DNA of 64,000 bases from Halichondria panicea (Eukaryota; Porifera; Demospongiae; Suberitida; Halichondriidae), in the NCBI RefSeq assembly GCF_963675165.1, contig NC_087383.1, forward strand, positions 4,122,979 to 4,186,978. The letters are read 5' to 3'. The position numbers and the translations under genes were made by a program. The notes below the pieces were generated by a model that was given only the letters and a program-made list of their open reading frames with translations, was not told where the DNA came from and did no database searches. Of the stretch, positions 4,880 through 56,300 are shown piece after piece (position 1 is the first letter of the stretch; each line of letters starts with the position of its first letter).

Positions 4880-7800
4880 TCAGATTGCCACGTAAATCTC
4901 AGGCAGTCCATTTCTCTTTCTCTCTTTGTTAGCGTCCCTGAATACTATCTCGATACAGGATCTTAGGTGATAAGGTATCCACAATCGTGTCAGTTCAGGG
5001 CAGTGGGTGGTTAGATGTCTGGCAAGTGTCTTCATTCCATCTTCTGTTATTGAGTCATTACCTTCAATGTACAGTGTTGTAATCTTGTTAATCAGTCCAG
5101 TTGATAGCTCCTCGATACTCTGATCAGTCAGATTACAGCGACTCAAGTTCAATGTTCTCAGAGTCTTATTGACTGCAAGTCCAGCAGCAATGTGACGACA
5201 GCTAGTCACTGTGTTATAAGACAAATAAAGAAATTCGAGGGCATTCAGAAGTTGATAGAGGGCAGCTCCATTGTCCTCTGATATTGTTAGTGAACAATTG
5301 GTCAGGTGCAGTCTCTTTAATGATGTGTTAGTTGACAAGGCCTCACAGATATACCTCAGTTCAGTGTTACCAATAATATTGTGTGACAAATAAAGGTCTT
5401 TAAGAGTAGTGTTTGTGCTCAGTAGTCGAGGGAGTGCTCCGTGATTGTTGAGAGATAGTGAGCAGTTGGAGAGATTGAGATACTTTAATGATTTGTTAGT
5501 TGACAAGGCCTCACAGAGTGCGCTAAGCCCACTATTGCCAATGGCATTATAAGACAAAGATATTGAACTAGTGTTCTTGATCACCTCAGCGATGTGGTGT
5601 ATCCCATCTTCATGAATATCATTATAATGAAGATTAAGACTAATCTCGAAGGGACACTTGGAAAGTCCTCGGGCCAGAAATTTACAGCCTTGGTCACCAA
5701 TACAGCAATTTTCGAGGCTAAGTGTGAATCCATTACTGGTGTTGGAACAAGCTGATACGAAATATCCAACAGAGAGGCAGTCAATGGGATTCATTGTAGT
5801 GAAATTAAGATCTAGATCATGATTAAGAAGTGTGGCCATAAACACACAAAGTGACGAGTCTTCAGCTTCGTACAAACAATTGATGAGGGACAACAAGAGA
5901 GGTTTTGGCTTAACATAAATATCATTATCATTTATCTTATTCTCACTTTTGACAACCTTTCTGACCAGATCAAAAACAGATGTTGGAAATGGACACAAGA
6001 ATCGAGGTAGCTTGCTGAGGATTGGTCTACTAGTTCTCAGTTTGGTGACACCAGCATAAAACTGGAAGACTGCGCTGAATCGAGGATTACCAAACAGCTT
6101 CTGAAATACAGAAATTTGGTTCCTGGGAGACATGAGAGAGATGTGGATTGCTGCTAGTAACTCTTGAATAGACAGGTGGAGAAAGCAGTAGTAAACCAGA
6201 TGACCATCGCTAATGATACTGGGAACAGTTTGTAATAATCCAACTTTTGAAATCTCCTTCGTAATGCGAAGAGCGGCCAAATCATTGTCAGTAAATGTCA
6301 CTTTGTCTTTTTCAATCCCATAATATGCAAGTTGACACATTTGTACGGACGGTGTTTTGATTTCTGAGGGCAGTGAGTGTGGAAATGTGATGTCTCCCAC
6401 TGAAGTGGTTTTCCCCAACCTATCCTGGAGGTATCTCTTGAGAGTGCTCTGGACAGCAGATGTGAATATCCCGTGGTTGGATGTTGGGAGTGAGTGGTTA
6501 TCAGAAAGGAAGCAATTAACGACAATGGACGCATTGAGGGGGAGGTAGCAGCTACCTTCTACCACTGGGTTCTCTCGAATTCTTTCCAGTAGAGTCTGCA
6601 CAGCTTGTGAGTCACCTTTCAAACACTCAGTGAAATACTGTTCTAGTTCATGAGGAGTGAACCCCAACACCTCCACCCTGGACGAGACTAGTGGGTGGAG
6701 CTCAGCCGAGGATGACGGTCGAGATGTTACAATCAAGGCGGATTCGTGTAGCGGACTTTCTCGTGACATATCTGGTCGGATTAGTTTGTTGATGATGGAG
6801 TCTCTAGGGAGGTCAGAAGGAAGCTCGTCCCATCCGTCTAGCACCCACAGTACACCTTTGCCATACAGTGATTTTATTACTGCCTCTGTCTCATTAGCCA
6901 CGGCCGTATCAATGCAGGGAAGTATGTCAGCAATTTTCTTTGCTTCTCTAACGAGGGGATCTCTCAGTCTCACGAGGATTGCAATATCGAATTCTTGGAA
7001 CAGTTTTCCTTTTGCCCACTCCTGACAGATGTGTAGAGCAAGGGTGCTTTTGCCAGAGCCTGGAGCTCCTTCAATCAACACAAAGTTTCGTCTATTTCTA
7101 ATCTCTGAGAAAATATTTATCAAGTTAACCGGAGACTTTTGAAGTAAAATATCGTCAATTTTTCCTGTGATTGATAGTCTAAAAAATTCATCATTGATTT
7201 TTCCTCTCTGAATTTCCTCCTTCTGAATCATGGCCAGCTTGAAGACTTTGTTTGTTGGGACGGGAGGCCATTGTGTGACTGATGTGGATACTTGTGTTCT
7301 GTAGCGACTTTGTAGGTAGTCCCTGTACGAGGACAGCTTGTGATTCAGCAGAACCCTCTCTCGGGAGGGGGGACACGAGGTGATGGAGTCTGGGGAAACA
7401 AAACAATAGGTGAGTACCATTCCTGGTAATATAGTATTATCTCAATAATTGTACGCGAAGCAATAAAATAAGTTGACTGCCCCTTATTTGGTTGCAATCA
7501 CTCCCACAACGTATGGTACCACAATGACCACACTCTCACATGACAGACTCACATTTGTCAGACAAGTACTTGCACACTCGAACAGCAACGTCTCCATTGA
7601 GCAGAGAGAGTATGATGAGTAGCAGAGCTTGGAAGGTGGCTTGTAGTTGGTTCTTGTTCTGCCAGTATTCTAGGGCAAGCTTCATTCCGGCTTGAGTGCG
7701 GTTTAGACGTGTTTTAGCCTTCACTTCGCTTACGTCAGTTTTCTGTCCAGGTGATAGCTCCAGCTTTTCAAGATAATCATCAGTGTTATCGAAACATGCT

Positions 7801-18214: not shown

Positions 18215-18802
18215 GTAAGTCTCCTTTTTTTTAGCTCATCCATACATGCATTGTTGAGGTTTTATACCAAATGCTTATTGTGTGTTGTCTTTGCAGTGGA
18301 CAACTTTGATGGTGGAATCAGCTTCTCGTTCTCGCTGCCTTTCCGTACCATTTCCTGTTCCGGACTACTCCTCTACTCCCACATCGCTCTCGAACTACTC
18401 AATGGAACAGTGAGTCCACATGCAGTCATTTCAGCATATATTATAGTAGCTTAGGTGTTGACCTCAAATTAAAGTTAGACTAAGTCTAGTCTGCAAAAAG
18501 AACAATAAAAAATCGCTGCATTACGCTTTTTCTTTTACTAGCTATTTAATTTCGTGTGTGTATTATTATAGGTGCAGTTTGTGTTTGACAATGGTCCCAT
18601 GGAGGCGGTGGTGGAGTACACGCCCCTAGCCCTGCCCACCTGTGTGATAACGAGTGGCATACCCTCTGTGCTGAGAAGGATGGTGTGAGAGGTGTGCTAA
18701 TCGTGGACGAGGGGGACCCTGTCAGTGTCTCCGCCTGCTCCCCCCACCCCAGCTTCAGGGCCGTTAACATCAACGACCCCCTCTATGTTGGGGGTATGGC
18801 TG

Positions 18803-19665
18803 GTGAGGGCTCATTGATTGCCACTACTGTCATTGTATACTTAAAAAAACGAATGTTTATTGCACAATTAATATGAAGAGCTATAATTATCTGTTATAAT
18901 AATTACAATAGCTATTTAAACCATTTGCTGTATCATTTGCGGACAAAAAAATCAGCATATCAATTTTGTGAACAGGAAAAATTATCACAATTAAAAAAAA
19001 GTATTACATCTATCTACAATCAAGCTGTGTATGTACCAGTCTCTGCCAACTATCTCCAAACTACCCTAGACTGTCTCAGATTTAGTTCTATCACCCCTGT
19101 CCCAAAAAGAAACTTGCTATTCACCTCATATATCCCTGATTTTCAACCTTGCTGCTCTTGAGCGGGTTTATTAAGCTCCAATAAAGCTTGGGCAAGCCTT
19201 AAAGGCTTCAACTACTGCTAAATAATAGTAAATCCTGAGCAGAATCAGCTTTGAACAAGAAAAGTTCTAGAAAACTAATAGATTATGAATGACAGTCCAA
19301 CAAGTGGGCGGGGCTCACTTACTAGACACACTATAACTACTAGTGCAGCCACATCCAGAACTGTGCAGTGATGCTACTGCATGCTGGTCTATCTGGGACA
19401 CCACAGTACTCACATCTTCCATGTAGGAAAACTTGTATTCATTGTTGTTTTTGCACTGAAAATCAGATTCACGCTATTAATTGTTGTCTCAGAGTCTGCA
19501 TGGGCTTAAATTATTGTGAATAAATGTGCCTCCTTCAATGGCAGCAGGGCTGTAACAGGCCCATATTTTTTTTCCTAAATCGGGAAGTTGGCACCAGTCC
19601 TATGCATTCTTTTAGACATTACTAACTTTCATGCTTTAGAAGTCCAAAGGCTGCTTGTAGTATCC
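18803..19665. other. Intron start, no gene
   Basis: AT-rich, with A-runs near 18945-19000. No supported frame. The sequence at about 19636-19662 (AGAAGTCCAAAGGCTGCTTG then TAGTAT) recurs in similar form at 24749-24775 and 43205-43232, and may be a subterminal motif of the element. Confidence 0.45.
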
Positions 19666-19670
19666 ACATC

Positions 19671-19671
<1 letters not shown>

Positions 19672-19709
<38 letters not shown>

Positions 19710-20180
19710 TTTCAGTAAGTGCTGAACAAAAATGAATAAAGAACTGAGTATACTAGTAAGGAATAGAGCACACTGCCAGTCTTTGACTTCTTAAAAGTCT
19801 AGCTGGAGTACGTACTATACTACAAATAAGGATTTTTAATTAAATTAAATAATACAATTGAAGCAAGGGCAAATCACATGATAAGTACATAGTTTGTCTG
19901 GGTCAAAATTTGTATTGAAATAATCCCAGACGAAATTGAAGAGGAGTCTCTCTATTCTCCGGTACGGCATTTCCAGATCCAGGCTTGGCATTGCATTCCA
20001 AAGGCATACTACTCTATTGAAGTAATAGTGTCGTGTTTTGTTCAATCTGGTGAAATTGTGTGACAGTTTTAGGTTGCTACCGAGCCTGGTTGATGTAGTG
20101 ACAAAGTGAACATGGTCGCGTATGTTGAAATTATCTTGGGGCTGCTTTAGGTGTTTGACTAGGAACATGATATCCCCAGC
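19672..20180 (-). mobile_element. 5'-truncated LINE (non-LTR retrotransposon) 3' end
   Basis: On the minus strand a 107 aa frame (20168-19845) has the typical C-terminal end of a LINE reverse transcriptase ORF: NIRDHVHFVTTSTRLGS, RLNKTRHYYFNRVVCLWNAM and LLFNFVWDYF. Downstream on that strand lies about 165 bp of 3' sequence and then an (AAT)n tail (the (TTA)n run at 19673-19705). It lacks the 5' bulk, as usual for truncated insertions. Compared with 43.2 kb it interrupts the repeat that flanks the transposase gene. Confidence 0.75.
19673..19705. repeat. (TTA)n microsatellite, LINE tail
   Basis: About 11 perfect TTA units at the 3' boundary of the minus-strand LINE fragment. CR1/L2/I-like elements often end in such short repeats. 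Confidence 0.85.
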
Positions 20181-20184
20181 TCCA

Positions 20185-20450
20185 GCCAGTGAGAGTTTTA
20201 TTAGCCCTAGGGCTTGAGGGCTTCTAAGTCATGTAGAAACTAAACAGTGTCTAAGAATTTTATATCATAGTGTCTAGATGGATTTGCTCCTAGCCATGAA
20301 TTGTTATCTAATCTTTGCTACATGATTGTAAGTGTTTCTCTATAAGTGAAGTACATGCATGATTGTCTAGTACACAATTTTCTAAATTGGATAGAACACT
20401 TCCTCTAACTAATCAAATTGCACTATTTATGGCTATATAAGAACATGCTC
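20185..20450. repeat. Dispersed repeat upstream of the transposase, also at 43.25 kb
   Basis: Starts AGTGAGAGTTTTATTAGCCC and ends near TTGGATAGAACACTTCCTCT plus about 30 bp. It aligns along its length with 43246-43470 (AGTGAGAGTTCTACTAGCCC ... TTGGATAGAACACTTCCTTT), with small indels. Its position just before the transposase start suggests the element's 5' region or promoter. Confidence 0.8.
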
Positions 20451-20505
20451 TAACATTACATAGATAGTTTGTCTTCTAAACCTAATAGTATATAGATCTG
20501 CAACA

Positions 20506-23029
20506 ATGTCCCTACTTCCATCTATAGGTGAAATATCTCAACAGCACAAACGTCGAAAATTACAGACCTCATCCCTTCTCTCTTCTTACGAATCACTGGC
20601 TTCAATCGACCTCAACACATGGAGCACACTCAATAAGTTGAGCAGAGAAGTGAAAGAATCTTGGTTGGTAGCTAAGTTTGGGTTTGTACTTGTGAATGAG
20701 GTGTGCCTTTTACTGCGTTCTATCTCTGGCAAATGTTACTGATTCCGAAAAAAAAAATATCTTGTGTAACTGTGACCTCTCTCTACCTGGTGTCCAACAG
20801 GAAAGTATAGAAATGGTGGCTGAATTTGTCGATAACCACTGCCCACACCTTGTACGATTTACTCCGAATAACTACCCTCCATTGTTGACTCCACCCACAA
20901 ACACCTGTTTTGACTGTGACCGACCATTGGTGTCTAATCATTCTTGCCATGTGAGTTTTTTATTGGCTAAACTATTATTTTTATCCTAAACAATATTTTC
21001 AGATAAAGTGTTACTCTCTGAATGGTTTTGTCAGAGGAAGAAAGTGTACGCTAAGGTGTAAAGCTTGCAACATAACTTATAACTATGCTCACTTTGGAAA
21101 CAAGTCTGAGAATGGATTCCGTATGTACCCCCAAACTCAAACATATGTTGAAGTGTCTGACACCGTTTATTTTTCAAGGGATTTGTTGGAGTGGCAGTGT
21201 AGCCTTGCGTAAGTGAACAATGTTTAGTACTTATAGCAAAACTGTTTCATGAATAAATAATGTCCATCTCAACATAATTATTTGTCCTGTAGTAATCACT
21301 CTTGGGTTTCCTTTCAAGGGTTTGCTGAAAGTTACAATACTGCTTTAGAGATACCACCAGATGAAGGTATAAATAGAGAAGCAAATAATTTATGTCTATA
21401 GATAAATAATGGTGTTCAAGTACAGAGCTTAGTCCCTATATTGTTGGGGAAGCCTTCTATAATGGAGAAGTGGAGAATGAGTTGAGACGAGTCAATAAGA
21501 TCGACTATCGTTTCCATAAAGACAGTGAGAGAGAGGAGTGTATGGAAAGGATTGAAGAAGTAAGGCGGCAATCTATATACCACCACAAAGAAGACACGTG
21601 TACTGCTGAATGCAAGAAAAGAGGTAATTATAGTGCATGACTGTATAATTATTATTGAACCCAATAGGTTGTGGTCAACTGTGGGTTACAGATGGAATTT
21701 GGAAGACTGTTTTCCCACACTGCATGTTCAAAGTTGAGGTGATGGATGGCAACTTATTCATTTCCACAAACATTATAGTTACATTGTAATTTGTAATTTC
21801 AAAACCTTTGCAGCAAATCAGTGATGGAATTCCAGCTCTCAATTTACCTGATGTGTGTACAAACTCCCCAATTCGCAATAAGGCGTTTTGCGAGGAACAC
21901 TGTCTTTTGCTACAGAATGAAGCTCCTGATGTACCTATTGATCTGAGACAGTTTCTCAAATATTGTGGTGCTCAAGCAGTTGGTAATTTAAGATACAGTG
22001 GTACAATTATTTACTTACACGATTTAATTAGAAAATGAAGAGGAGTGTGAGGGTGACACTGATACTGTTGATGCAGTTGTGAACTCTATTAAAGTCAATA
22101 CAAACCAATTTGGAACATCTGCTACCACCTCACAAGGTATGTAATTATGTAGAATTCTCTATTACTTTTATTGAACTTTATCCTAGGTACTGCAGCTTTA
22201 ATTGAGAAGCATCCTGAACTAGTACGAAGTACTGTGTATGATGACCCTAATGAACGAGTTTGCAGGAAAGATACGGGTAAATCCAAACGGTTGAGGAAGT
22301 GGTCTAGAGGGCACCAATTTGTCATCAGAGGGGGTGGTCATATTGACACTTGGCAACCATTGTACAGGTACACGCCATGCATTCACATGACCCTTTTTTC
22401 CTGCATGTATACATTTTAGCATAATAGCTACATTATACTGAACTGTAATAGCTAGTGCCTATAATTATAAGTACTAACCCTCCACTGTTGACATGAATAG
22501 AAACTATGCATGTATAAAACAAATGCACTCTATATATAATTTATATATACCTATATATAGGTCTGAATCGCCATCACAAGTTTTCTTAATTTTGATTCAA
22601 TGGCTGCTGTCTCTAGCTAAGTCTCGTGGTGGTATTGGGAAGCCTATCTCATTGGCCTATGACAACATGTGCAATTTAGCAAAGCTGAAGGCTGCTCGTG
22701 CTCCTCTACCATTTACTCCGCCATTGGACCGTTTGTGGCTTGATGTCAACAAAATCATCGATGTGTTTCATTTTCAAAACCATGTGTCTCCAGATTGTAA
22801 ATTAAAGTTTTCTCCTGCTGAACTGAAGAGCGAGAATCCTGACTTCAATACACAGGCTGGGGAGCAGACATTTGTTTGGGTACATCGGTTTAGTCACATT
22901 CTGTGCTCAATGAACAAGGTTCACCACCTTTTTTATCTCCACCGAATGGTGTTAAGGCGAAACGAGTATACCAGCAAGTGCTATGCTAGAGGAAAAAAGC
23001 CAATTCTCCCAAAAGGAACTGCAAAGTAA
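20506..23029 (+). CDS. KDZ-type transposase with N-terminal zinc-binding module
   Basis: Likely start MSLLPSIGEISQQHKRRK. Exons read by eye: 20506-about 20700, 20801-20950, 21003-21208, 21293-21366, 21426-21623, 21668-21738, 21814-21982, 22032-22136, 22187-22367 and 22561-23029; only the first junction (20700/20801) is doubtful. The N-terminal part has a Cys cluster of the CxC type found with KDZ transposases (CFDCDRPL, KCYSLNGFVRGRKC, RCKAC). The catalytic half shows PISLAYDNMCNLAK, IIDVFHFQNHVS and AGEQTFVWVHRFSHIL, matching the D/H/E core pattern of Kyakuja-Dileera-Zisupton RNase H-fold transposases. The middle (GCGQLWVTDGIWKTVFPHC) may supply the first acidic residue. The product would cut and join DNA. 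No internal stop is seen in the catalytic exons. The family call is from memory of motifs, not a search. Confidence 0.72.
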
Positions 23030-23820
23030 CTGTTTTAGAAGTAAATTGTTTTGCATTGCTTATACATGTGAATGTGTTGAGATATACATGCAGTCACCTA
23101 ATTAGCAATTACTATCACTTTACTTTATATGATACCTATATACGACTAGAAAAACATTTGCAATGTGAAAAATTGCTAGGATTGGCCAGGGGAACCACAA
23201 AAAAGCGTGGAAACAAGAAATCCGACGAGAGCATAACTCCAATCCTTTACAACGTCAATCACATGTACTGGTAGTTTTCCCATGTTTTCCCAGCCAATAT
23301 GCCACGCAATTTTTACTCAGTGGTGTGATGACCAATCCCTATATATTTATTATACATCCATTTTGGAATGTGCGGGCATATAATCATGATGATTTGTGAT
23401 GAATTGATGTTCCTAATACATGCAGTGTTGAGCACAGGTACACACAGTCCATGCGTAGTAACATGCACGGACCGTACTGGTGACCTGCATGGAATGATTT
23501 GGTGGATGTTCAATGCGCATTGAGTGTCTAGTGTGGACAGGCCTTTAGTCAGTCAGACAACGAGCGGTGAAACGTCGAAATAGTGCAATTTTTAAAATGG
23601 CAATATTCATACGTTCATGGATTATGAAATGAGAGATACAAAGAGAGAAAAGGCTAAATAAACTATCTGTCCATTCAGTTTTGATGTGGCCTTTCCCTGC
23701 AGAGATAAAACAGTTTGAACATGAGTCAAAATAAGTGAAATATTGCTAAACACGGGCAAACCCACTGCCAATCCTATGTAAAACCTACTGATCTAAGTTG
23801 ATTGTAAATATTGGCTGTAT
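23030..23820. other. Gap between the two element genes
   Basis: No supported gene. A frame at 23151-23274 (EKHLQCEKLLGLARGTTKKR, GNKKSDESITPIL) could be a small exon of either gene but has no clear splice partner. It presumably contains the terminator of the transposase and the promoter of the next gene. Confidence 0.4.
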
Positions 23821-23849
23821 TAAATATTGAAGTGGTGGGTGTAGATATG

Positions 23850-26800
23850 TTTGAGAAGGGCGGAGTTTACGACTCATGTGCATGACCGCTGTGCGCAGCA
23901 TCTAAAACAGTGTCTCTCTAGCACACTAGTACTGCAAGCTGCTTGTGCACATAGATCGATCAATTCAATGAGGCTAGTGCAGGAAAACCACAGCATTGGC
24001 TACTGGAAAGAAAAGAGTGGTCCTGCCAGAAAATTCTATAAGCTTACAAATTTCAGTTTGAGGCTATTGAAGCATGTCCGAGCACCAGAGGAGCTACCAC
24101 ATTTTTCTGGATTTGTAGTGGAAGTGACCCAAAAGCAGAGGTACCGTGGTGAAGTAAACGAAAGTTCAAGCGATATCTCAAAAGGGTAACGAATGCATGC
24201 ATGCATTTTTGCTTATTCAGTTATTTATTGTATAATACAGGTTGGCATTCATACCATGGTACAAGATACCCAACACAGAACAACTTCTGCAATATCTCAG
24301 TCCTGCTATTCCGTCAGGGGCATTATCTTCACAACTCTCACTCTCTCAAACAAAGTCATTATTGATGCAGCTGTGTCAAGAGTTTTTTGAGTAAGCTATA
24401 TTTTTTAGTGTAAGGAATCCATGCAATGACTATAAGTATTATAATTATACCTGTGATGATTTTACTGCTACATCTAGACACTAGTTGATAGTATTTATAT
24501 ACATGGGAAGTATACGTACATGCATGGGAAAAGCGCCTCAGAGCAGGTATATATACTATGGGACTTATAGTATATACGTATGTATATACCTGCAATTTAC
24601 TTATAGTACACCTATATATATAGTAATCCTTTGTCAAGTAATATAATTATAAAGTCAAGCCTTGAGGGCAAGGTTTGCACATGCATGCATGCGCACTATA
24701 GTATCTAGACACTTGCACTCACTGTTTTGTCACTGTCCATGTGATTTAGAAGCCCTTAGCCACTTGTAGTATACCCTCGCTATTAGTTGTACTATATTTT
24801 GGCATGTGACTTTCATTGTTTGTGCAATTTGCTATAGCCATTGGATCACTTTCCACATGTCTTGTTACTATACATGCTGTGTCATTCCCCCATTGTGTTT
24901 TGCAATCCATTCACTACAAGTACCTGTATTTGGATATGTTATGTTCTATCTTCAGTGTGCATGAATTTACAAATTCATATAATTATACATGCACAATATA
25001 CTTTTCAATATACCTTTCAATTGTGCACTCTTATTAAGTCTCCCGTACCCCCTTATATAATTATACCTATTATGTGTTTAGGTGATTTCTCTCTTGGATG
25101 CTAATAAATTAAGTAGCTACTACTGTACAGCCATTTTTACCATGAGATAGTTCTTAACTTTCTAATAGCTAATATACAAAAAACAAATCGAACTATAATA
25201 ATGAGTAATCGAAATACTGTATATTAAGTAACATTGAAGGCCATTACCTATAAGGATTACAAACACATACATTATGATTAATATGCATGCATGCACATGA
25301 ATTATAGGAATGAAGACAGTGATGCAGATGAGGATGACACAGAGCCATCACGATACCACCCTGTATCTTGCACTGGGCTTCAACCTGATTCTAAAGTGTT
25401 TGTATTTGGACCTGAGTTCCAAATTGAGGAGGATGGTGCAGTAATTTCTCAAGAGAACAGCAGTACATTTGGATTGATGCCATCCTTCAGAAATTGCAGC
25501 GGACCGTGAACTCTCTACCACCAATTCCAAATCCTACTCTTCAGCACCTACATACGATTGTCCGAGGAATGCACAGCATCTCTGGAGACAATGTTTTCAG
25601 TGGATTGTTCCTTTTAGGCAAGTTCTGATCAGCTAAGTGCATGCATGCATTACATGATCCAATTTGCTGAAAGCATATAATTATACTACTACCTTTTCAA
25701 CTGTAAGTAATTAAACCAGTACGAATTGAGTGTTATAGCAATACTTTTCTGCCCTTAATAAAAGGTTGGAAATACTTTATATACATAATAATACCTTAAT
25801 TATATAGCAACATTTTCTAGGCACTTATATTTCATGGAATGGCCTCTAAAAACATTTCTTTGCACAATGTTTGAATGCCGCTTACCTGAAGCCACGCTTT
25901 AATCTTTGCAAGTTATAGCTAATAATTTTTGTGGATTTAACTTTTGTAGGATTGCTAACCCACGAAATCAGCAACAATTATATATAAGCCCTTCGAAAAT
26001 GTTGCGCTATACGGGAAGGAGGGGATTGTTCAGTGTATCATAATGCATGATTATAGTGCTAACTATACTGCATGGATGCATTTGCAGCATCTTCCGTGCA
26101 TAATTATGACTATATAATTATATATAGGTGCAGGAATTATGTCAATGCACTATGAGGCCATCATAGCACGATGTGGATCTATTGGTATGGCAATAGCTAC
26201 TAGCGCAATCAGCAGAGGCAAGACCAATTGCGCAAAGCTTGCTATTGCGATGTGTGGAAACTATCCCAAAGGATGCGCAGGCTATCTCACTGATAGTATG
26301 GCAAGGGGTCACTTGAGTGGCAGTCTTCCATTTCTGTACGATGATCCCAGCAGCGATACTGTCTTGAAGCCCCTCCTCATGAATTCATTTGGTGGGACAG
26401 AAATAGGTACTAAGAAGGCACAGTTTTCTGCCAGGTGTTCTCCCATCGTCACGTGCAATGAGTTCGTTATGGAAAAATTGGCTCAAGCAGATGATCGGTT
26501 AGTACATGCGGACATGGTGGGAGGATCCCATATTTTATACAGGAGGTTCCAATGTATATAAATAATTATACATAATTATACATTTGCATAATAATATTAT
26601 AGTGATTACATGCAATTATATAGGTACATGGCCAGAGCAATTTTGGTGCCATTTGTGTTTGAAGCTCCTCCAATGAGAGTGGACACCCTTGATACCATTC
26701 TAGCAGAAGCTCATAGGGCACTGCCGGAGGCAATATCCATTGGCTACTGGTTGAAGAATCTACCCCAAAACCTACTCTATGAAACGGTAGAGAAAGTACA

Positions 26801-29800
26801 GGAATCTGTTGAAGGGAAGATGGACGGCAGGCTGGCGATGCAGTATGCTCTATATCTACTGTGTGCAAAAGAGGTATAATTATTATGTATAATAGTGACT
26901 TACAATAATGCTTGCTTTCATACTTAATTGTTCACTCAATTGTAGATTTCTGATAGGGCTGGGTGCAGTGAGGTGACATCTGATCACATTTGGGATCACT
27001 TTCAGAGTGCGATAGTACCGGCTATTTGCAATTGGCAAATTGGAGAGAGTGACACAAATGAAAAAGCTGAGAGCAACAACTTGGGAAAACTCTTGCACAA
27101 AGGTCTTCAAAAGGCCCTAATTTCTGACGAGCATATGTCCGAGGTGCGTGCATGCATGTGTGCACATTTGACATACTGCATATTATATATAATATATAGT
27201 CCTGCTATTTGTGCAGTTTCTGAACTGTGTCACCCCAAATGTGAATTACCACCTGAAAAACACAAAGGACATGGTTCAAGGAGCAGCCATTCGACTCCAG
27301 GTTTTCTTAAATTACCTAGACAGCCATGGAATTCCTCATGCTTCGCACAAAGTCATTCGAAGGAAGACAAAGAAATGCAAAAGATGTGCTCCCAGAAAGC
27401 GCCAGTATTTCCTTCGAAAGGATGTGGTAGTCTGCTCAAGGAAAATAAGGAGAGAGTTAGCAGAATGCAAAGGGTGCATCTGTATACCCAGAGATCAGCT
27501 AAAGGAAGGATTTATCGAAGCCTTTAAGCACAGTAAGCCCGATTATTGGTAAATTACATCTTGCGCATGCATGCATATAAAATATTATAGTCTGTCAGAC
27601 GTGCATGCATAGGTATACCAATTTATTCTAGTGTTCCATGCATGCATGACTGTGAATATGGCTGATCAATTTGCATACATATATATAGAATCTTCAAGAA
27701 GCTCTACCGACAAACATAACAATTCAGAGGGTTCAAGGGATCAACTAGATGACTCAGGTATATTATATTATACCATCATGCAACTAGTTGGAGCATGCAA
27801 GACTATACCAACCCACAATCTTGTTTTCGAACTTTTTGTTACTTCAGTGCGCATGCTCTTCCAACCCTACTCTTCCCCATTTTTTCACAAAATGTTTTTT
27901 GCACTTGTTTGTACCCTTTTTACTGCATGCATGTATTATACAGTTGTGTCATGCACGTCATTATAAGGAGATGTTCATTGTATATAATCATAGGCATCCA
28001 CATTGAAGACGAATTTACGGATGACACACAGTTATCAGGTTAATAATGATGCATGCAATAATTATATGCTTGCATGTAAAGTATTACTATAATTGCAGGT
28101 GAACCACTAGAACACAATATTGATTATAAAGAACAACAGCCTTGGTTCTTTTATGAAGGTTTGTATTATATTGCAGGTCAAAATTATAATTAGCACGCAT
28201 GCATGCATGCATGCAGATCTCAGTGACAATGAATTTTATTCTCTCCTTGGTGAGCACTACCTCGAAGAGCTTGAGGACCAGTTGGATCCTACGTCTCATC
28301 ATGAGCAACAAGAAGAGCCAGCTCCTCCAAAGAAGAAGACAACACTAAAAATAGGTATATACTTATAGTATTATTATTACTGTATAATATGAAGAACATA
28401 ATTATTATAGGAACTCCGAAGGAATTTGAAGTGCAGTCTACCCCCCAACAAAGACTAACAATATCATCAGCCAATCCATTAGGTATGTCAGTATACTGTA
28501 GTGATATTGAGGTGCAAAATTTCCTTTTTCGAAGGCAAGGCAGTTAATGAGAAAGTTAAAACGGGCCATGGACGCACCGGTATATATACACATGCTAAGC
28601 TAGCTATTGGTAATTGTGGTTTCCTATGACTATTCAGAACACCCAAACATTTCTGCTGAGGGCTCTGCATGTAATTTATATATAATTATATATACCCACA
28701 AATACGATTATTTTAATTATATAAAATTATGTCATATTTTATATACATGGATGCAGTGCTATGTCATTATCCTCTCACACCTGTCCGTCTCCATCGACTA
28801 GGAGTTACACCACCAAGACAGAGGCAATTAGGTATGGTGTATATATTATACATTATAGCTAATTTTTGCTGTTTTTGTGGGCCCCGTAGACTGGCCGTAG
28901 TATAGTTTGCCGCCTTGACTATCTGCTATTATAACTTGCAAAACATATATTATTATTAATGGGGCTGGAGGTGATTCTGATAAGCATGCCGGAGTTAATA
29001 ATTACTCCTGATGATTCAAAGAAATAATGCCCTGCACATACTTTTATCCTGCACTCTCAGTGCAAAAGAAGCGTCCTGTTTCGGTATCACTGACAAAATT
29101 GTATGAAAGAATTGGAGTAAGTCCTGCCAGATTGAGTGGCCATGCACGCAGAAAAGCAACATCTACTACAGTTGTGGTAAGAAGGAACCTGTTAACAGAA
29201 TTGGCCAAAGTGAAGTTGGGCGTTAAAAAAGGTAGCTATAAATATATAATAAATAACATGCATGATGCACTTAAAAACATTGTGCAAATTGTATTCAGAC
29301 AACAGTAAATGTCTCGCTGAATTCAAAGCAACTGGCAAGCAAAGTAAGATGCATGTCAAGTGCCTGCATGTATTGTGCATGTATTATACTATGTTTTTTA
29401 TATATGCTATAGGCTTTAAAGTTATCATAATTATATACTCACATGCAGACAAATCAAATTATGCTGCCAAGAACAGAAGCAAAACCAAAATTGCTAGTAA
29501 ACCACGATCGCCTGCAAATACCAGAAGTAAAACAAAACCTGCTAGTCAACCACAATCTGCCAAGATATTGTCTACCAATGGTGCCAAAAGAAAAAAGAAC
29601 TGTGCTAATAAACCGCAAGGCAAATCTGCTGTACAAGTTGCAATTGTAGGAGGTAATTAGATAATTATTATGTGCTGACAAACAATAATTATATATAGTG
29701 CATGCATGGCATGTAGTGATATAATGTAATTATATTGACTCGGGCAATGCATATAAGTGTATATGATAAATGCAAGTGGCACTTATTTCCATGTATATGT

Positions 29801-29983
29801 TTTGATTGTGCAGAAGACAAGGAGCAATGCCCTAAGTATGTATGCGTATACAAAAGAGTGCCTCGTGCTTCAACCATGATTGCTTGTCACACATGTGACC
29901 AATGGTTCCACATCAAGTGCGTATCGTTATCACAAAAAGAAGCTGGGAAGATAGCACAGTGGCATTGCAGCAAATGCATGTAG
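23850..29983 (+). CDS. SF3/DUF927-like ATPase with basic tail and C-terminal PHD finger
   Basis: Many small exons in a row on the plus strand: about 23850-24187 (KQCLSSTLVLQAAC, LLKHVRAPEELPHFSGFVVE); 24241-24390 (LAFIPWYKIPNTEQLLQYL); about 25308-25620 (acidic start; IWIDAILQKL, LHTIVRGMHSISGDNVFSGL, with a frame change near 25440); 26129-26499 (ATPase core); 26623-26874; 26945-27142; 27217-27550; then short acidic or Lys-rich exons to 29660; and a last exon about 29814-29983. The core has a degenerate P-loop, SAISRGKTNCAKLAIAMCG, an acidic Walker B-like LPFLYDDPS, and SPIVTCNEF as sensor, resembling viral or plasmid primase-helicase (SF3/DUF927) ATPases. The end is a PHD-type C4HC3 finger (ACHTCDQWFHIKC, WHCSKCM). 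The start codon is not identified. I infer replication or target-binding help for the adjoining transposase. Confidence 0.55.
24400..25300. other. Intron-like gap inside the ATPase gene
   Basis: About 0.9 kb AT-rich stretch between the exons ending near 24390 and starting near 25308. It holds the motif AGAAGCCCTTAGCCACTTGT (24749) also seen near 19636 and 43205, suggesting a nested repeat fragment. No gene. Confidence 0.4.
29814..29983 (+). CDS. PHD finger exon (3' end of the ATPase gene)
   Basis: The last exon encodes CPKYVC, ACHTCDQWFHIKC and WHCSKCM, then a TAG stop. The eight metal ligands are in C4-H-C3 order with the aromatic (W) two residues before the H, as in PHD fingers that read histone H3 tails. 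The spacing of the first Cys pair (four residues between) is longer than usual. On a mobile element this would suggest chromatin-guided targeting. Confidence 0.75.
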
Positions 29984-30340
29984 CTAATACTTAATTTTGC
30001 CTGCATGAACTCAATCTATAATAACAGTTATTGTATCTATTATTTAGGTATATAATAATATTATAGTGTTTTGTGTGCTAGTATAGCATGTTGTTTTATG
30101 TATTATGTATATACAATCGAAATGAATGATATCTTGATACCATTGTGATAATAAGTTTTATGGGGGAAGGGTGGTTTTTATGTAGTTACATGCATGCATG
30201 CATGGCTATAATTATGGGGGGAAGGGGTTGTCTATATAATTATAATACCAGTGCATGTTATCATGAACATAATTATACATAATTATTATGCATGGCCGAG
30301 GGCCCTGTGAGGTGCATGCATCATGGGGTTGCCAATAAAA
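29984..30340. other. 3' flank of the ATPase gene
   Basis: AT-rich, with CATGCATGCATG near 30191, G-rich patches near 30160-30230, and AATAAA at 30336. No gene. Confidence 0.5.
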
Positions 30341-30343
30341 GTC

Positions 30344-31440
30344 TGTCAATATATAGTATAAACTAAATTTGTGATCATTCTGTCAATTGTGAACGCTTAT
30401 ATCAAACGTATATACTATATTATATAATTATATAGTATAAACTAAAATTTAATTTGTGCATGATCATTCTGTCAATTGTGAACGCTTATATATCAAACAT
30501 ATAATTATACTATATATATAGTATAAACTAAATTTGTGTGATCATTCTGTCAATTGTGAACGCTTATATCAAACGTATATACTATAGTATAAACTATATA
30601 TATAATTATATAGTATAAACTAAATGTGTGAACATTCTGTCAATTGTGAACGCTTATATCAAACGTATATATATATATAGTATATATATAGTATAAACTA
30701 AATTTGTGTGATCATTCTGTCAATTGTGAACGCTTATATCAAACGTATATATAGTATATATATAGTATAAACTAAATTTGTGTGATCATTCTGTCAATTG
30801 TACGCTTATATCAAAAGTATATATAGTATATATATAGTATAAACTAAATTTGTGTGATCATTCTGTCAATTGTACGCTTATATCAAAAGTATATACTATA
30901 GTATAAACTATATATATAATTATATAGTATAAACTAAATGTGTGATCATTCTGTCAATTGTGAACGCTTATATCAAACGTATATATATATATAGTATAAA
31001 CTAAATTTGTGTGATCATTCTGTCAATTGTGAACGCTTATATCAAACGTATATATAGTATATATATAGTATAAACTAAATTTGTGTGATCATTCTGTCAA
31101 TTGTGAACGCTTATATCAAACGTATATACTATATAGTATAAACTATATATATAATTATATAGTATAAACTAAATGTGTGATCATTCTGTCAATTGTGAAC
31201 GCTTATATCAAACGTATATATATATATAGTATATATATAGTATAAACTAAATTTGTGTGATCATTCTGTCAATTGTGAACGCTTATATCAAACGTATATA
31301 TATAGTATATATATATAGTATAAACTAAATGTGTGAACATTCTGTCAATTGGGAACGCTTATATATCAAACGTATACCTTACATGATTCCACAAATAGAA
31401 ACTAATTAATTTTGTGAACATTCTGTTAATTGTGAACGCA
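30344..31440. repeat. AT-rich tandem array, 14 units
   Basis: Fourteen units of about 73-90 bp share GTATAAACTAAATTTGTGTG followed by ATCATTCTGTCAATTG and TGAACGCTTATATCAAACG, separated by variable (TA)n spacers. The conserved ATTCTGTCAATTG core starts near 30377, 30467, 30544, 30634, 30714, 30788, 30860, 30948, 31017, 31091, 31183, 31263, 31339 and, degenerate, 31419. Several spacers are self-complementary (TATATAATTATATA). The array sits between the PHD exon and the next laminin-G exon. Confidence 0.93.
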
Positions 31441-31786
31441 TAATAATAAAGGAAAAATGTTGAATTTTCTACATAATATTACTTTCATGCAATAGAGATC
31501 TATATATGCATGTATTTATCATACACATAATGACATAATGATATAAATACGCTATATAGATATACACTATACATGTCTATCAGTTTGCATAATACCACTA
31601 TATATAGGCTATAGAGAATTGGAGACAACTCAAGTTCAGGTAGATTCTTCACCAGTCCTGATAGCAGTAGATCTATATCATGATTGTGATAGTGTGATAG
31701 TATCACAATTTATGCCCCACCAAAAAACCGTCCACAAATCAAACAGTGTATCATTTAAACGTTGATGTGTTTCTTTCTTTCTGCAG
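31441..31786. other. End of the 13 kb intron
   Basis: No gene. A small inverted repeat GATTGTGATAGTGTGATAGT / ACTATCACAAT-like lies near 31680-31710. Ends in the pyrimidine tract TTTCTTTCTTTCTGCAG, the acceptor of the laminin-G exon at 31787. Confidence 0.5.
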
Positions 31787-43682: not shown

Positions 43683-46600
43683 TCAGATTGCCACGTAAAT
43701 CTCAGGCAGTTCATTTCTCTTTCTCTCTTTGTTAGCGTCCCTGAATACTATCTCGATACAGGATCTTAGGTGATAAGGTATCCACAATCGTGTCAGTTCA
43801 GGGCAGTGGGTGGTTAGATGTCTGGCAAGTGTCTTCATTCCATCTTCTGTTATTGAGTCATTACCTTCAATGTACAGTGTTTTAATCTTGTTAATCAGTC
43901 CAGTTGATAGCTCCTCGATACTCTGATCAGTCAGATTACAGCGACTCAAGTTCAATGTTTTCAGAGTCTTATTGACTGCAAGTCCAGCAGCAATGTGACG
44001 ATAGCTAGTCACTGTGTTATAAGACAAATAAAGAAATTCGAGGGCACTCAGAAGTTGATAGAGGGCAGCTCCATTGTCCTCTGATATTGTTAGTGAACAA
44101 TTGGTCAGGTGCAGTCTCTTTAATGATGTGTTAGTTGACAAGGCCTCACAGATATACCTCAGTTCAGTGTTACCAATAATATTGTGTGACAAATAAAGGT
44201 CTTTAAGAGTAGTGTTTGTGCTCAGTAGTCGAGGGAGTGCTCCGTGATTGTTGAGAGATAGTGAGCAGTTGGAGAGATTGAGATACTTCAATGATTTATT
44301 AGTTGACAAGGCCTCACAGAGTGTGCTAAGCCCACTATTGCCAATGGCATTATAAGACAAAGATATTGAACTAGTGTTCTTGATCACCTCAGCGATGTGG
44401 TGTATCCCATCTTCATGAATATCATTATAATGAAGATTAAGACTAATCTCGAAGGGACACTTGGAAAGTCCTCGGGCCAGAAATTTACAGCCTTGGTCAC
44501 CAATACAGCAATTTTCGAGGCTAAGTGTGAATCCATTACTGGTGTTGGAACAAACTGATGCGAAATATCCAACAGAGAGGCAGTCAATAGGATTCATTGT
44601 AGTGAAATTAAGATCTAGATCATGATTAAGAAGTGTGGCCATAAACACACAAAGTGATGAGTCTTCAGCTTCGTACAAACAATTGATGAGGGACAACAAG
44701 AGAGGTTTTGGCTTAACATAAATATCATTATCATTTATCTTATTCTCACTTTTGACAACCTTTCTGACCAGATCAAAAACAGATGTTGGAACTGGACACA
44801 AGAATCGAGGTAGCTTGCTGAGGATTGGTCTTCTAGTTCTCAGTTTGGTGACACCAGCATAAAACTGGAAGACTGCGCTGAATCGAGGATTACCAAACAG
44901 CTTCTGGAATACAGAAATTTGTCTCTGGGAAGACATGAGAGAGATGTGGATTGCTGCTAGTAACTCTTGGATAGACAGGTGGAGAAAGCAGTAGTAAACC
45001 AGATGACCATCGCTAATGATACTGGGAACAGTTTGTAATAATCCAACTTTTGAAATCTCCTTCGCAATGCGAAGATCGGCCAAATCATTGTCAGTAAATG
45101 TCACTTTGTCTTTTTCAATCCCATAATATGCAAGTTGACACATTTGTACGGACGGTGTTTTGATTTCTGAGGGCAGTGAGTCTGGAAATGTGATGTCTCC
45201 CACTGAAGTGGTTTTCCCCAACCTATCCTGGAGGTATCTCTTGAGAGTGCTCTGGACAACAGATGTGAATATCCCGTGGTTGGATGTTGGGAGTGAGTGG
45301 TTATCAGAAAGGAAGCAATTAACGACAATGGACGCATTGAGGGGGAGGTAGCAGCTACCTTCTATACCACTGGGTTCTCTCGAATTCTTTCTAGTAGAGT
45401 CTGCACAGCTTGTGAGTCACCTTTCAAACACTCAGTGAAATACTGTTCTAGTTTTTGTGGAGTGAACCCCAACACCTCCACCCTGGACGAGACTAGTGGG
45501 TGGAGCTCAGCCGAGGATGACGGTCGAGATGTTACAATCAAGGCGGATTCGTGTAGCGGACTTTCTCGTGACATATCTGGTCGGATTAGTTTGTTGATGA
45601 TGGAGTCTCTAGGGAGGTCAGAAGGAAGCTCGTCCCATCCGTCTAGCACCCACAGTACACCTTTGCCATACAGTGATTTTTTTACTGCCTCTGTCTCATT
45701 AACCACGGCCGTATCAATGCAGGGAAGTATGTCAGCAATTTTCTTTGCTTCTCTAACGAGGGATCTCTCAGTCTCACGAGGATTGCAATATCGAATTCTT
45801 GGAACAGTTTTCCTTTTGCCCACTCCTGACAGATGTGTAGAGCAAGGGTGCTTTTGCCAGAGCCTGGAGCTCCTTCAATCAACACAAAGTTTCGTCTATT
45901 TCTAATCTCTGAGAAAATATTTATCAAGTTAACTGGAGTCTTTTGAAGTAAAATATCGTCGATTTTTCCTGTGATTGATAGTCTAAAAAATTCATCATTG
46001 ATTTTTCCTCTCTGAATTTCCTCCTTCTGAATCATGGCCAGCTTGAAGACTTTGTTTGTTGGGATGGGAGGCCATTGTGTGGCTGATGTGGATACTTGTG
46101 TTCTGTAGCGACTTTGTAGGTAGTCCCTGTACAAGGACAGCTTGTGGTTCAGCAGGACCCTCTCTCGGGAGGGGGGACACGAGGTGGTGGAGTCTGGGGA
46201 AACAAAACAATAGGTGAGTACCATTCCTGGTGATATAGTATTATCTCAATAATTGTACGTGAAGCAATAAAATAAGTTAACTGTCCCTTATTTGGTTGCA
46301 ATCACTCCCACAACGTATGGTACCACAATGACCACACTCTCACATATGGCAGACTCACATTTGTCAGACAAGTACTTGCACACTCGAACAGCAACGTCTC
46401 CATTGAGCAGAGAGAGTATGATGAGTAGCAGAGCTTGGAAGGTGGCTTGTAGTTGGTTCTTGTTCTGCCAGTATTCTAGGGCAAGTTTCATTCCGGCTTG
46501 AGTGCGGTTTAGACGTGTTTTAGCCTTCACTTCGCTTACGTCAGTTTTCTGTCCAGGTGATAGCTCCAGCTTTTCAAGATAATCATCAGTGTTATCGAAA

Positions 46601-53387: not shown

Positions 53388-56300
53388 TTAGAATCCACGC
53401 ACAACAATCTCAGGTAGTCTATTTCTCTTCCTCTCTTTGTTAGCGTCCCTGAATACTGTCTTGATACAGGATCTTAGGTGGACGGGTATCCACAATAGTG
53501 TCAGTTCAGAGCAGTGGGTGGTTAGATGTCTGGCAAGCGTCTTCATTCCATCTTCTGTTATTGAGGCATTACTCCATATGTGCAGTGTTTCAATCTTGTT
53601 GATCAGTCCAGTTGATAGCTCCTCGATACTCTGATCAGTCAGTTTACAGGGACCCAAGTTCAATTTTTTCAGAGTCTTATTGACTGCAAGTCCAGCAGCA
53701 ATGTGACGACAGCTAGTTACTGTGTTTTCAGACAAATTAAGATATTCGAGAGAATTGTTTGTATTCAGAAGTTGATAAAGGGCAGCTCCATTGTCGTTTG
53801 ATATTGTTAGTGAGCAATTGCGCAGGTTCAGTGTCTTTAATGATGTGTTAGTTGACAAGGCCTCACAGAGTGTGCGAAGTCCACTGTTACCAATGGCATT
53901 ATAAGACAAAACCAATTCTGATATTGAACTAGTGTTCTCGATAATCTCAGCGATGTGTATCCCTTCTGTAGGTATATCATTATTAGAGTTGGGACACTTG
54001 GAGAGTCCTCGGGCCAGAAATTTGCAGCCTTGGTCACCAATAGAGCAATTGCTGAGGCTAAGTGTGAATCTATTACTGGTGTTGGAACAAACTGATGCGA
54101 AATATCCAACAGAGAGGCAGTCAATAGGATTCATTGTAGTGTGATCAAGATCTAGATTGTGATTAAGAAGATTAGCCACAAACACACACAGTGACGAGTC
54201 TTCAGCTTCGTACAAACAATTGATGAGGGACAACAAAAGGGGCTTCGGCTCACCATACTTCTTCTCTTTCTCAGTTTTGACAATCTTTCTGACCAGATCA
54301 AAAACAGTGGCTGGAACTGGACATAACAATCGAGGTAGCAAGCTGAGGATTGGTCTACTAGTTTTCAGTTTGGTGATACCAGCATAAAACTGGAAGACTG
54401 CACTGAATCGAGGATTCCCGAAGAGCTTCTGGAATACAGAAATTTGTTGCTTGGGAGACATGAGAGAGATGTGGATTGCTGCTAGCAGCTCTTGAATAGA
54501 CAAGTGGAGAAAGCAGTAGTAAACCAAATGACCATCGCTAATGATACTGGGAACAGTTTGTAATAATCCAACTTTTGAAATGTCCTTCGTAATGCGAAGA
54601 GCGGCCAAATCACCATCAGTAAATGTCGCTTTATTTTGTTCAATCCCATGATATGCAAGTTGACACATTTGTACAGTCTCTGTTCTGATTTCCGAGGGCA
54701 GTGAGTCTGGGGATGTGATGTCTCCCACTGGAATGGTGTTCCTCAACTTCTCCTGGAGGTATCTCTTGAGAGAGCTCTGGACCACTGATGTGAATATTTC
54801 GTGGTTGGATGTGGGGAGTGAGTGGTTATCAGAAAGGAAGCAATTAACGATGATGGAAGCATTGAGGGGGAGGTAGCAGCTACCTTCTACCGCTGGGTTC
54901 TCTCGAATTCTCTCCAGTAGAGTCTGCACAGCTTGTGAGTCACCTTCCAGACACTCGGTAAAGTACTGTTCTAGTTCATGTGGATTGAACCCCAACACCT
55001 CCACCCTGGACGAGACTAGTGGGTGGAGCTCAGCTGAAGATGACGGTCGAGATGTTACAATCAGGGTGGATTTGTGAAGCGGACGTTCTTGTGACATGTC
55101 TGGTCGAATTAGTTTGTTGATGATTGAGTCTCTAGGGAGGTCAGAAGGAAGTTCGTCCCATCCGTCCAGCACCCACAGTACACCTTTGCCATACAATGAC
55201 ATACATGTAATTGCAGTCTCTGTTTCATTAGCCATCGCTTTGTTTGTGCAGGGAAGTATGTCAGCAATTGTCTTTGCTTCTCTAACGAGGGGATCTCTCA
55301 GTCTCACGAGGATTGCAATATCGAACTCTTGGAACAGTTTCCCCTTTGCCCACTCCTGACAGATGTGTAGAGCAAGGGTGCTCTTACCAGAGCCGGGAGC
55401 TCCTTCAATCAGCACAAAGTGTCTTCTATCTCCAATCTCAGAGAAAATGTTAGTCAAGTTAACCGGAGTTTTTTTAAGTAAAATATCGTCAATTTTTCCT
55501 GTGATTGTTAGTTTAACAAATTCATCGTCGATTCTTCCTCTCTGTATTTTCTCCTTCTGAATCATGGCCAGTTTAAAGACTTTGTTTGTTGAGACGGGAG
55601 GCCATTGTGTGGCTGATGTGGATACTTGTGTTTTGTAGCAACTTTGTAGGTAGTCCCTGTACGAGGACAGCTTGTGGTTCAGCAGGACCCTCTCTCGGGA
55701 GGGGGGACACGAGGTGGTGGAGTCTGGGGAAAAAAACAATAGGTGAGTACCATTCCTAGTGATCTTAATACAGAATAGGTGTAATAATAGCAATTAAGTT
55801 GAAGAGTCCCTTATTTGGTTGCAATCACTCCCACACCGTATGGTACCACAATGACCACACTCTCACATGACAGACTCACATTTGTCAGACAAGTACTTGC
55901 ACACTTGAACAGCAACGTCTCCTTTAAGCAGGGAGAGTATGATGAGTAGCAGAGCTTGGAAGGTGGCTTGTAGTTGGTTCTTGTTCTGCCAGTATTCTAG
56001 GGCAAGTTTCATTCCGGCTTGAGTGCGGTTTAGACGTGTTTTAGCCTTCACTTCGCTTACGTCAGTTTTCTGTCCAGGTGACAGCTCCAGCTTTTCAAGA
56101 TAGTCATCAGTGTTATCGAAACATGCTGCTAACTCAGGTAAATCTGGTTCCTTTATTGCTGTATTGAGCTGCTCATCAGTCAGTTTCAATTCTGTCTTCA
56201 GATCATCAATTGTGAGCTCTGAGGGAATTCACCATTAAAAATAGTAATAATTTTGTAGCAGTGAGTCAGTGGACTCTAATATCTGTCTATGCACGTCATA

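Follow-up and report, generated by a model that had tools for sequence, protein, structure and literature searches.

A DNA transposon of the KDZ (Kyakuja-Dileera-Zisupton) class lies within a laminin-G intron in the window, the 64,000-nucleotide stretch of Halichondria panicea DNA analyzed here, and it carries two genes. Gene 1 encodes a KDZ-class transposase with a CxC5 zinc cluster, and gene 2 is predicted to encode an AAA+/SF3-like ATPase with a C-terminal PHD finger. We read gene 2 as a dedicated accessory of this KDZ-class transposon, with a probability of about 0.62. Three families of the genome (131 Mb in 39 contigs), divergent from one another and here called A, B and C, have this combination of transposase, ATPase and PHD finger; family A includes the window copy. 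Positions without a contig prefix are window coordinates. The parts of the element and the duplications at its borders are as follows.

18914..18921, no strand: left target-site duplication ATTTAAAC, present as a single copy in two empty sites
18922..31752, plus strand: transposon, 12,831 bp, its first and last bases common to eight two-ended copies
18928..18944, plus strand: left sub-terminal inverted repeat, 14 of 17 positions matched to the right repeat
19674..20187, no strand: insert of ~514 bp, present in the window copy and in the copy C1:9.05, absent from five other large copies examined
20506..23029, plus strand: gene 1, KDZ-class transposase with CxC5 zinc cluster, 10 exons, 605 amino acids, open
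23968..29983, plus strand: gene 2, ending in the PHD exon, exons predicted by eye
~30350..31376, no strand: tandem array near the right end, period about 74
31730..31746, minus strand: right sub-terminal inverted repeat, pairing with the left repeat
31753..31760, no strand: right target-site duplication ATTTAAAC, single in the two empty sites

The host intron extends over 18794-31786, with the mobile element at 18922-31752. An earlier note on this DNA had described two co-oriented multi-exon genes and a tandem array filling an intron whose laminin-G exons join in phase, and this description was confirmed: the exons and the array could be located, the flanking exons join in phase at 18793/31787, and the joined protein gives a Laminin_G_2 match spanning the junction (E 1e-10). 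Joined at one ATTTAAAC, the host flanks match two uninterrupted paralogous laminin-G copies elsewhere in the genome, which are 97% and 86% identical to them. In each of these the element is absent and ATTTAAAC is present once, and these two segments are empty sites. The same note had considered, as a case against a transposon, host genes at a conserved syntenic place with no empty site in the laminin-G intron, and the two empty paralogous segments found in this genome show otherwise. The upstream laminin-G exon (~18560-18660) is read in different frames on either side of ~18640, so that the host laminin-G gene copy may be broken or the exon border may lie elsewhere.

Comparison of insertion edges between loci, as the note had proposed, revealed shared termini and 8-bp duplications. 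The alignment of the window with the copy at C1:9046573-9062445 (C1:9.05) runs from 18922 to the right end, at 99.4% identity for the first 7.7 kb and 97.7% for the 4.3 kb that follow. Seven family A copies have identical start and end bases, and an eighth (C17) is a 684-bp derivative in which both ends are retained around other DNA. Counted over the seven gene-bearing copies examined and the C17 derivative, perfect 8-bp duplications were present in six of the eight two-ended copies, all six different: ATTTAAAC in the window, GGTTGATT in C10, CGATTCCA in C11, TCATCTGT in C4, ATGCTATC in C6 and GAACAGTT in C17. The match between the sub-terminal inverted repeats of family A (14/17) was reached by none of 20,000 random stretches of the same length; those of family B are matched at 15 of 15 positions, and in both families the repeats begin at nucleotide 7. 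When the left and the right end were each used by itself as a query against the genome, 20 and 11 matches were obtained, some being pieces of a single copy. The duplications, the empty sites and the shared ends demonstrate past mobility of the element, and we attribute the two genes to a mobile element.

Gene 1 has nine GT-AG introns and no internal stop. It matches the CxC5 model PF18718 with 57.2 bits (cut-off 26.9; E 2.4e-15), whereas its tenth and last exon matches the KDZ domain PF18758 below the cut-off of 26.6 (19.8 bits, E 6.9e-4). The homologous stretch of family B likewise stays below this cut-off (22.4 bits, E 1.1e-4), and that of family C, consisting of two exons joined by eye, exceeds it (34.4 bits, E 2.3e-8). 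Families A and B are 66% identical over the KDZ-domain exon. Motifs resembling TDGIW, YDNMC and EQTF, as judged by eye, are retained in all three families (family C has SIDGNW), and these motifs may hold the putative acidic catalytic residues. The KDZ-type transposase that had been claimed is thus borne out by the CxC5 match in the window and by the KDZ domain in family C, and the assignment of the element to the KDZ class, with gene 1 as its transposase, is supported.

The note had also suggested a whole-genome search for other loci with the same gene pair, and the pair recurs in the three families, co-oriented in family A and head to head in families B and C. For this comparison, 17 ATPase, 24 gene-1 and 27 canonical KDZ-domain loci were collapsed by hand from 33, 125 and 53 matches, with one coordinate each; the gene-1 list is a lower bound, 72 of 124 candidates having been scored. 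A gene-1 relative was found within 10 kb of 16 of the 17 ATPase loci. The number expected for independent loci is 0.06, which is too low an expectation, since flanks are common to several copies at C1:15-17 Mb, which may have arisen by segmental duplication. Among the 16 pairs, the ATPase at C1:15661896 is close to gene 1 of a neighboring family B element and not to a gene 1 of its own, and the sole ATPase locus without gene 1 (C12) belongs to a sister group of ATPases and was counted in both ATPase lists. In the reverse direction, an ATPase lies near 15 of the 24 gene-1 loci, and all eight loci that match CxC5 have an ATPase nearby when the lists are compared by eye. Within 20 kb of the 27 canonical KDZ loci, neither group of ATPases is represented. 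The possibility that the two genes always lie apart, which the note had raised, does not agree with 16 of 17 ATPase loci in the same genome lying near a gene-1 relative.

The exons and motifs of gene 2 are listed below.

23968..27531, plus strand: 5' part, exons of the SF3/DUF927-like ATPase, with one frame break at ~25499/25500
23968-24185, 24241-24390, 25309-25499 and 25500-25617 (GC donor), plus strand: exons 1 to 4
26128-26497, 26624-26873, 26946-27143 and 27217-27531, plus strand: exons 5 to 8
26202..26225, plus strand: Walker A-like SAISRGKT, with Ser where the first Gly/Ala is expected
26325..26348, plus strand: Walker B-like LPFLYDDP
26439..26459, plus strand: SF3 motif-C-like SPIVTCN
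27690..29655, plus strand: linker of small, mostly phase-1 exons, predicted by eye
29814..29983, plus strand: last exon, PHD finger and stop (PF00628, E 1.3e-8)

The counterparts of the Walker A motif are GEVNRGKT in family B, GNVSLGKT in family C and GESGTGKST in the C12 sister. Across five ATPase sequences the GK of Walker A, one D of Walker B, the N of motif C and a D.R are invariant. No Pfam model scored above its cut-off for the ATPases of the window, of families B and C or of the C12 sister. Weak matches to DUF927 were obtained for two sister ATPases (E 0.006 and 0.06), and the sister with E 0.006 also gave a weak match to the primase/helicase family phrog_8841 (E 6.7e-5). Against the PDB, the best match of the ATPase profile was 5dgk, 'Active helicase', at E 0.11, which is a lead only. 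As these weak matches agree with each other, 'SF3/DUF927-like AAA+' is the best label for the protein, short of proven membership. The SF3-like ATPase of the earlier note is a candidate assignment that draws on stretches resembling Walker A, Walker B and motif C and on the weak profile matches; no DUF927 match exceeded its curated cut-off. An AlphaFold2 model of the ATPase core exon alone had a mean pLDDT (predicted local distance difference test) of 48.6 and was not used.

The PHD finger, in contrast to the ATPase, was recognized above the PF00628 cut-off of 24 in all families (35.2 bits in A, 30.7 in B and 27.7 in C), in agreement with what had been claimed for the window. The Cys4-His-Cys3 ligands were seen by eye in family A. 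The closest solved structures to the window finger include CFP1, PHF2, Spp1, TAF3 and BPTF, which are readers of methylated H3K4, and by similarity the finger may be of the H3K4-methyl reader type. Less firm is the proposed fusion of the finger to the ATPase: the small exons between them are consistent in phase, and the join was predicted by eye only. It is possible, though the less probable reading, that the PHD exons form a separate third gene, apart from that of the ATPase. The joint gene is a prediction from the DNA, and three copies (C4, C10 and C11) have one common internal deletion by which the ATPase exons were lost while gene 1 and the PHD exons were retained; the three PHD-side exons tested in these copies are 98.6-100% identical to the window, without gaps. 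Yet the linker exons, read by eye, keep a consistent phase all the way from the ATPase to the PHD finger, and the short copies are young and have a broken gene 1, so that their retention of the PHD exons may be due to chance.

The sister ATPases form a multicopy group of their own with 17 loci, and those read have a canonical Walker A. A gene for a transposase of the MULE/ZSWIM type (MULE, Mutator-like element) lies within 10 kb of 10 of these 17 loci, in all ten cases in divergent, head-to-head orientation, and 10 of the 14 MULE/ZSWIM transposase loci have a sister ATPase. Both sets were collapsed by hand, from 33 and 20 matches, two C9 pieces among the transposase matches being counted as one locus. 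Examples of paired loci, besides seven others, are given here.

C2:7738194-7741508 (L038)
C9:2868376-2871217 (L039)
C12:1781827-1786145 (L024)

The L038 transposase ends in a PHD-like finger that remains below the PF00628 cut-off of 24 (19.7 bits, E 8.5e-4); an unrelated zinc-finger model scored higher on it, likewise below cut-off, and among the three loci examined no such finger was found in L039 or L024. KDZ-CxC5 and MULE/ZSWIM transposases, which belong to unrelated classes, are thus both accompanied by the same ATPase family. The pairing with MULE/ZSWIM speaks for the ATPase as a module of transposition rather than a passenger carried along by chance. A broader and more tentative proposal, which we rate well below the reading of gene 2 as an accessory, is that the SF3-like ATPase family is a dedicated regulator of animal DNA transposons that was taken up by KDZ-CxC5 elements, where it is joined to a PHD finger, and by MULE/ZSWIM elements. 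If this is true, histone marks would steer insertion, as an AAA+ protein does for Tn7 and IS21. In viral contigs, searched with six peptide patterns per query that reach close relatives only, neither gene 1 nor one sister ATPase was matched.

For bacterial transposons, AAA+ target selectors are well established. To our knowledge none has been described for animal DNA transposons, and none was found in the literature searched. The ATPase-PHD protein is most likely an accessory in transposition, and perhaps a chromatin-guided target selector. In such a scheme, the ATPase would assemble on target DNA or on the complex of transposase and transposon ends, and once assembled would license or direct insertion, with the PHD finger tying the complex to histone H3 tails, possibly methylated at H3K4 given the similarity noted above. 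It would then be a working analogue of IstB, TnsC or MuB in which a chromatin reader replaces the reader of DNA sequence. With transposase, ATPase and histone reader in one element, chromatin-guided insertion would become testable, and the trio could be a reason why unrelated transposases are accompanied by the same ATPase family.

Several observations weigh against gene 2 being a dedicated accessory of a KDZ-class transposon. Nine of the 24 gene-1 loci have no ATPase nearby. Matching duplications are lacking in two of the eight two-ended family A copies (C1:9.05 and C1:12.3) and in three of the four of family B, where the only match, ATGCATGC, is a motif recurring in the same DNA. The Walker A of the window ATPase is substituted (Ser for the first Gly). 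DUF927 matched none of the window, family B and family C pieces and gave 0 matches in a genome search, and in the two sister ATPases its scores (13.5 and 16.7 bits) are below the cut-off of 22.6. The window copy has an open gene 1 and a broken gene 2; the break lies in exon 3, where the frame continues in family B and C1:9.05 is one base longer or shorter. In C1:9.05 the last exon of gene 1 is broken and exon 8 of gene 2 lies in two frames, and gene 1 is broken in the five other large family A copies, so that both genes are open in none of the family A copies examined. C4, C10 and C11, which are three of the nine gene-1 loci without an ATPase, have duplications of their own and therefore moved after the ATPase exons were lost. 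As none of the three retains an intact gene 1, their transposase may have been supplied in trans, in which case their movement has no bearing on whether the ATPase is needed. Finally, comparison of the family A copies, which are too young for such a difference, gave no clear sign that exons are better conserved than introns.

An unlikely alternative is a replicative helicase as the function of the ATPase: the element would be copied via replication, in the manner proposed for SCC-type elements with DUF927 helicases, and the PHD finger would give access to chromatin. The best matches of the ATPase, weak as they are, are to replicative proteins (phrog_8841, DUF927 and 5dgk). DUF927 helicases have been likened to Cch of the SCC (staphylococcal cassette chromosome) elements (PMC10061031), and the same paper cites a title according to which SCCmec is possibly replicative. 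Against this, no primase or polymerase was present among the pieces scanned with Pfam, all of them outside the linker exons of gene 2; the 8-bp duplications are consistent with ordinary KDZ insertion, and a robust helicase is less expected given the substituted Walker A in family A. Somewhat less probable still is a captured accessory that counters host silencing, its PHD finger binding histones and its ATPase remodeling or evicting a silencer, with no role in the transposition reaction. Fungal KDZ elements carry TET/JBP genes thought to aid escape from silencing (PMC12730594), and accessory genes, in most cases of unknown function, are frequent in the giant transposons of Ectocarpus, some of which are KDZ elements (PMC12477816). 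However, a role in transposition would account at least equally well for the tight pairing of the ATPase with two transposase classes that are unrelated. Two ordinary, immobile host genes in a long intron, which the multi-exon structure resembles, can be dismissed almost entirely, as the empty sites, the duplications and the dispersed copies with identical ends contradict them.

In its sub-terminal inverted repeats and its length the element resembles platyfish Zisupton, which is close to 11 kb long. With KDZ/Zisupton elements in general, the present transposon shares the KDZ-class transposase with a CxC zinc cluster, the 8-bp duplications (PMC12730594) and the multi-exon transposase gene (PMC9297572). 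It differs from them in its second gene, absent at the 27 canonical KDZ loci of this genome, and in the size of its transposase, 605 amino acids compared to the up to 1400 reported (PMC9297572). From fungi and algae, KDZ elements of large size and others with accessory genes have been described (PMC12730594, PMC12477816), and the fungal TET/JBP-bearing and giant Ectocarpus KDZ elements resemble the present one in having a second gene. Here, however, the partner is an ATPase-PHD protein, and neither the word ATPase nor the word PHD occurs in the main text of PMC12730594 or PMC12477816.

Outside the KDZ class, the RAG-like (RAG1L-RAG2L) elements also combine a transposase with a partner that has a C-terminal PHD finger; their RAG2L is a kelch protein and not an ATPase, and their duplications are almost always 5 bp instead of 8 bp (PMC7204232). 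The element described here would add to the transposons in which a PHD protein is the partner. PMC11208146 describes bacterial transposases, that of IS21 included, whose site choice is regulated by dedicated AAA+ proteins, and with IstB, TnsC and MuB the present system would share the pairing of a DDE transposase with a dedicated AAA+ partner. The likeness is one of logic alone, as no sequence match went beyond chance (the 'DNA transposition protein' family gave E 0.93). Among the MULEs, Rehavkus resembles the present element in its PHD finger and in a minisatellite before its 3' end, and MULE-Co in a second open reading frame (ORF), there of unknown function (PMC6446971). Both belong to another transposase class, and the MULE/ZSWIM elements of this genome carry the sister ATPase. 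The earlier note knew of no described KDZ element with such a partner, and an ATPase-PHD partner for KDZ was likewise not found in the open-access literature searched, Repbase being outside the search.

Further observations concern the copies and the surroundings of the element. C1:9.05 contains its own 3.6-kb insert (C1:9054253-9057846, L010) with inverted ends (CACTGTTAAAAATG...CATTTTTAACAGTG), apparently another DNA transposon. At the 514-bp insert of the window copy, a minus-strand ORF (19845-20228) looks by eye like the end of a LINE (long interspersed nuclear element) reverse transcriptase gene and gave no match in Pfam. Family B has a tandem array near the same end as that of family A, at ~22431-23381 of the joined loci L012-L014. 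In the gene 1 exons of C11, C10, C4, C6 and C1:12.3, many frame breaks are net insertions of 2 or 4 bases, which in the one exon inspected repeat the neighboring bases, an odd spectrum. Elsewhere in the window, three very similar large minus-strand ORFs (4880-7441, 43683-46245 and 53388-55793) resemble NACHT-LRR receptors by eye and are apparently recent duplicates.

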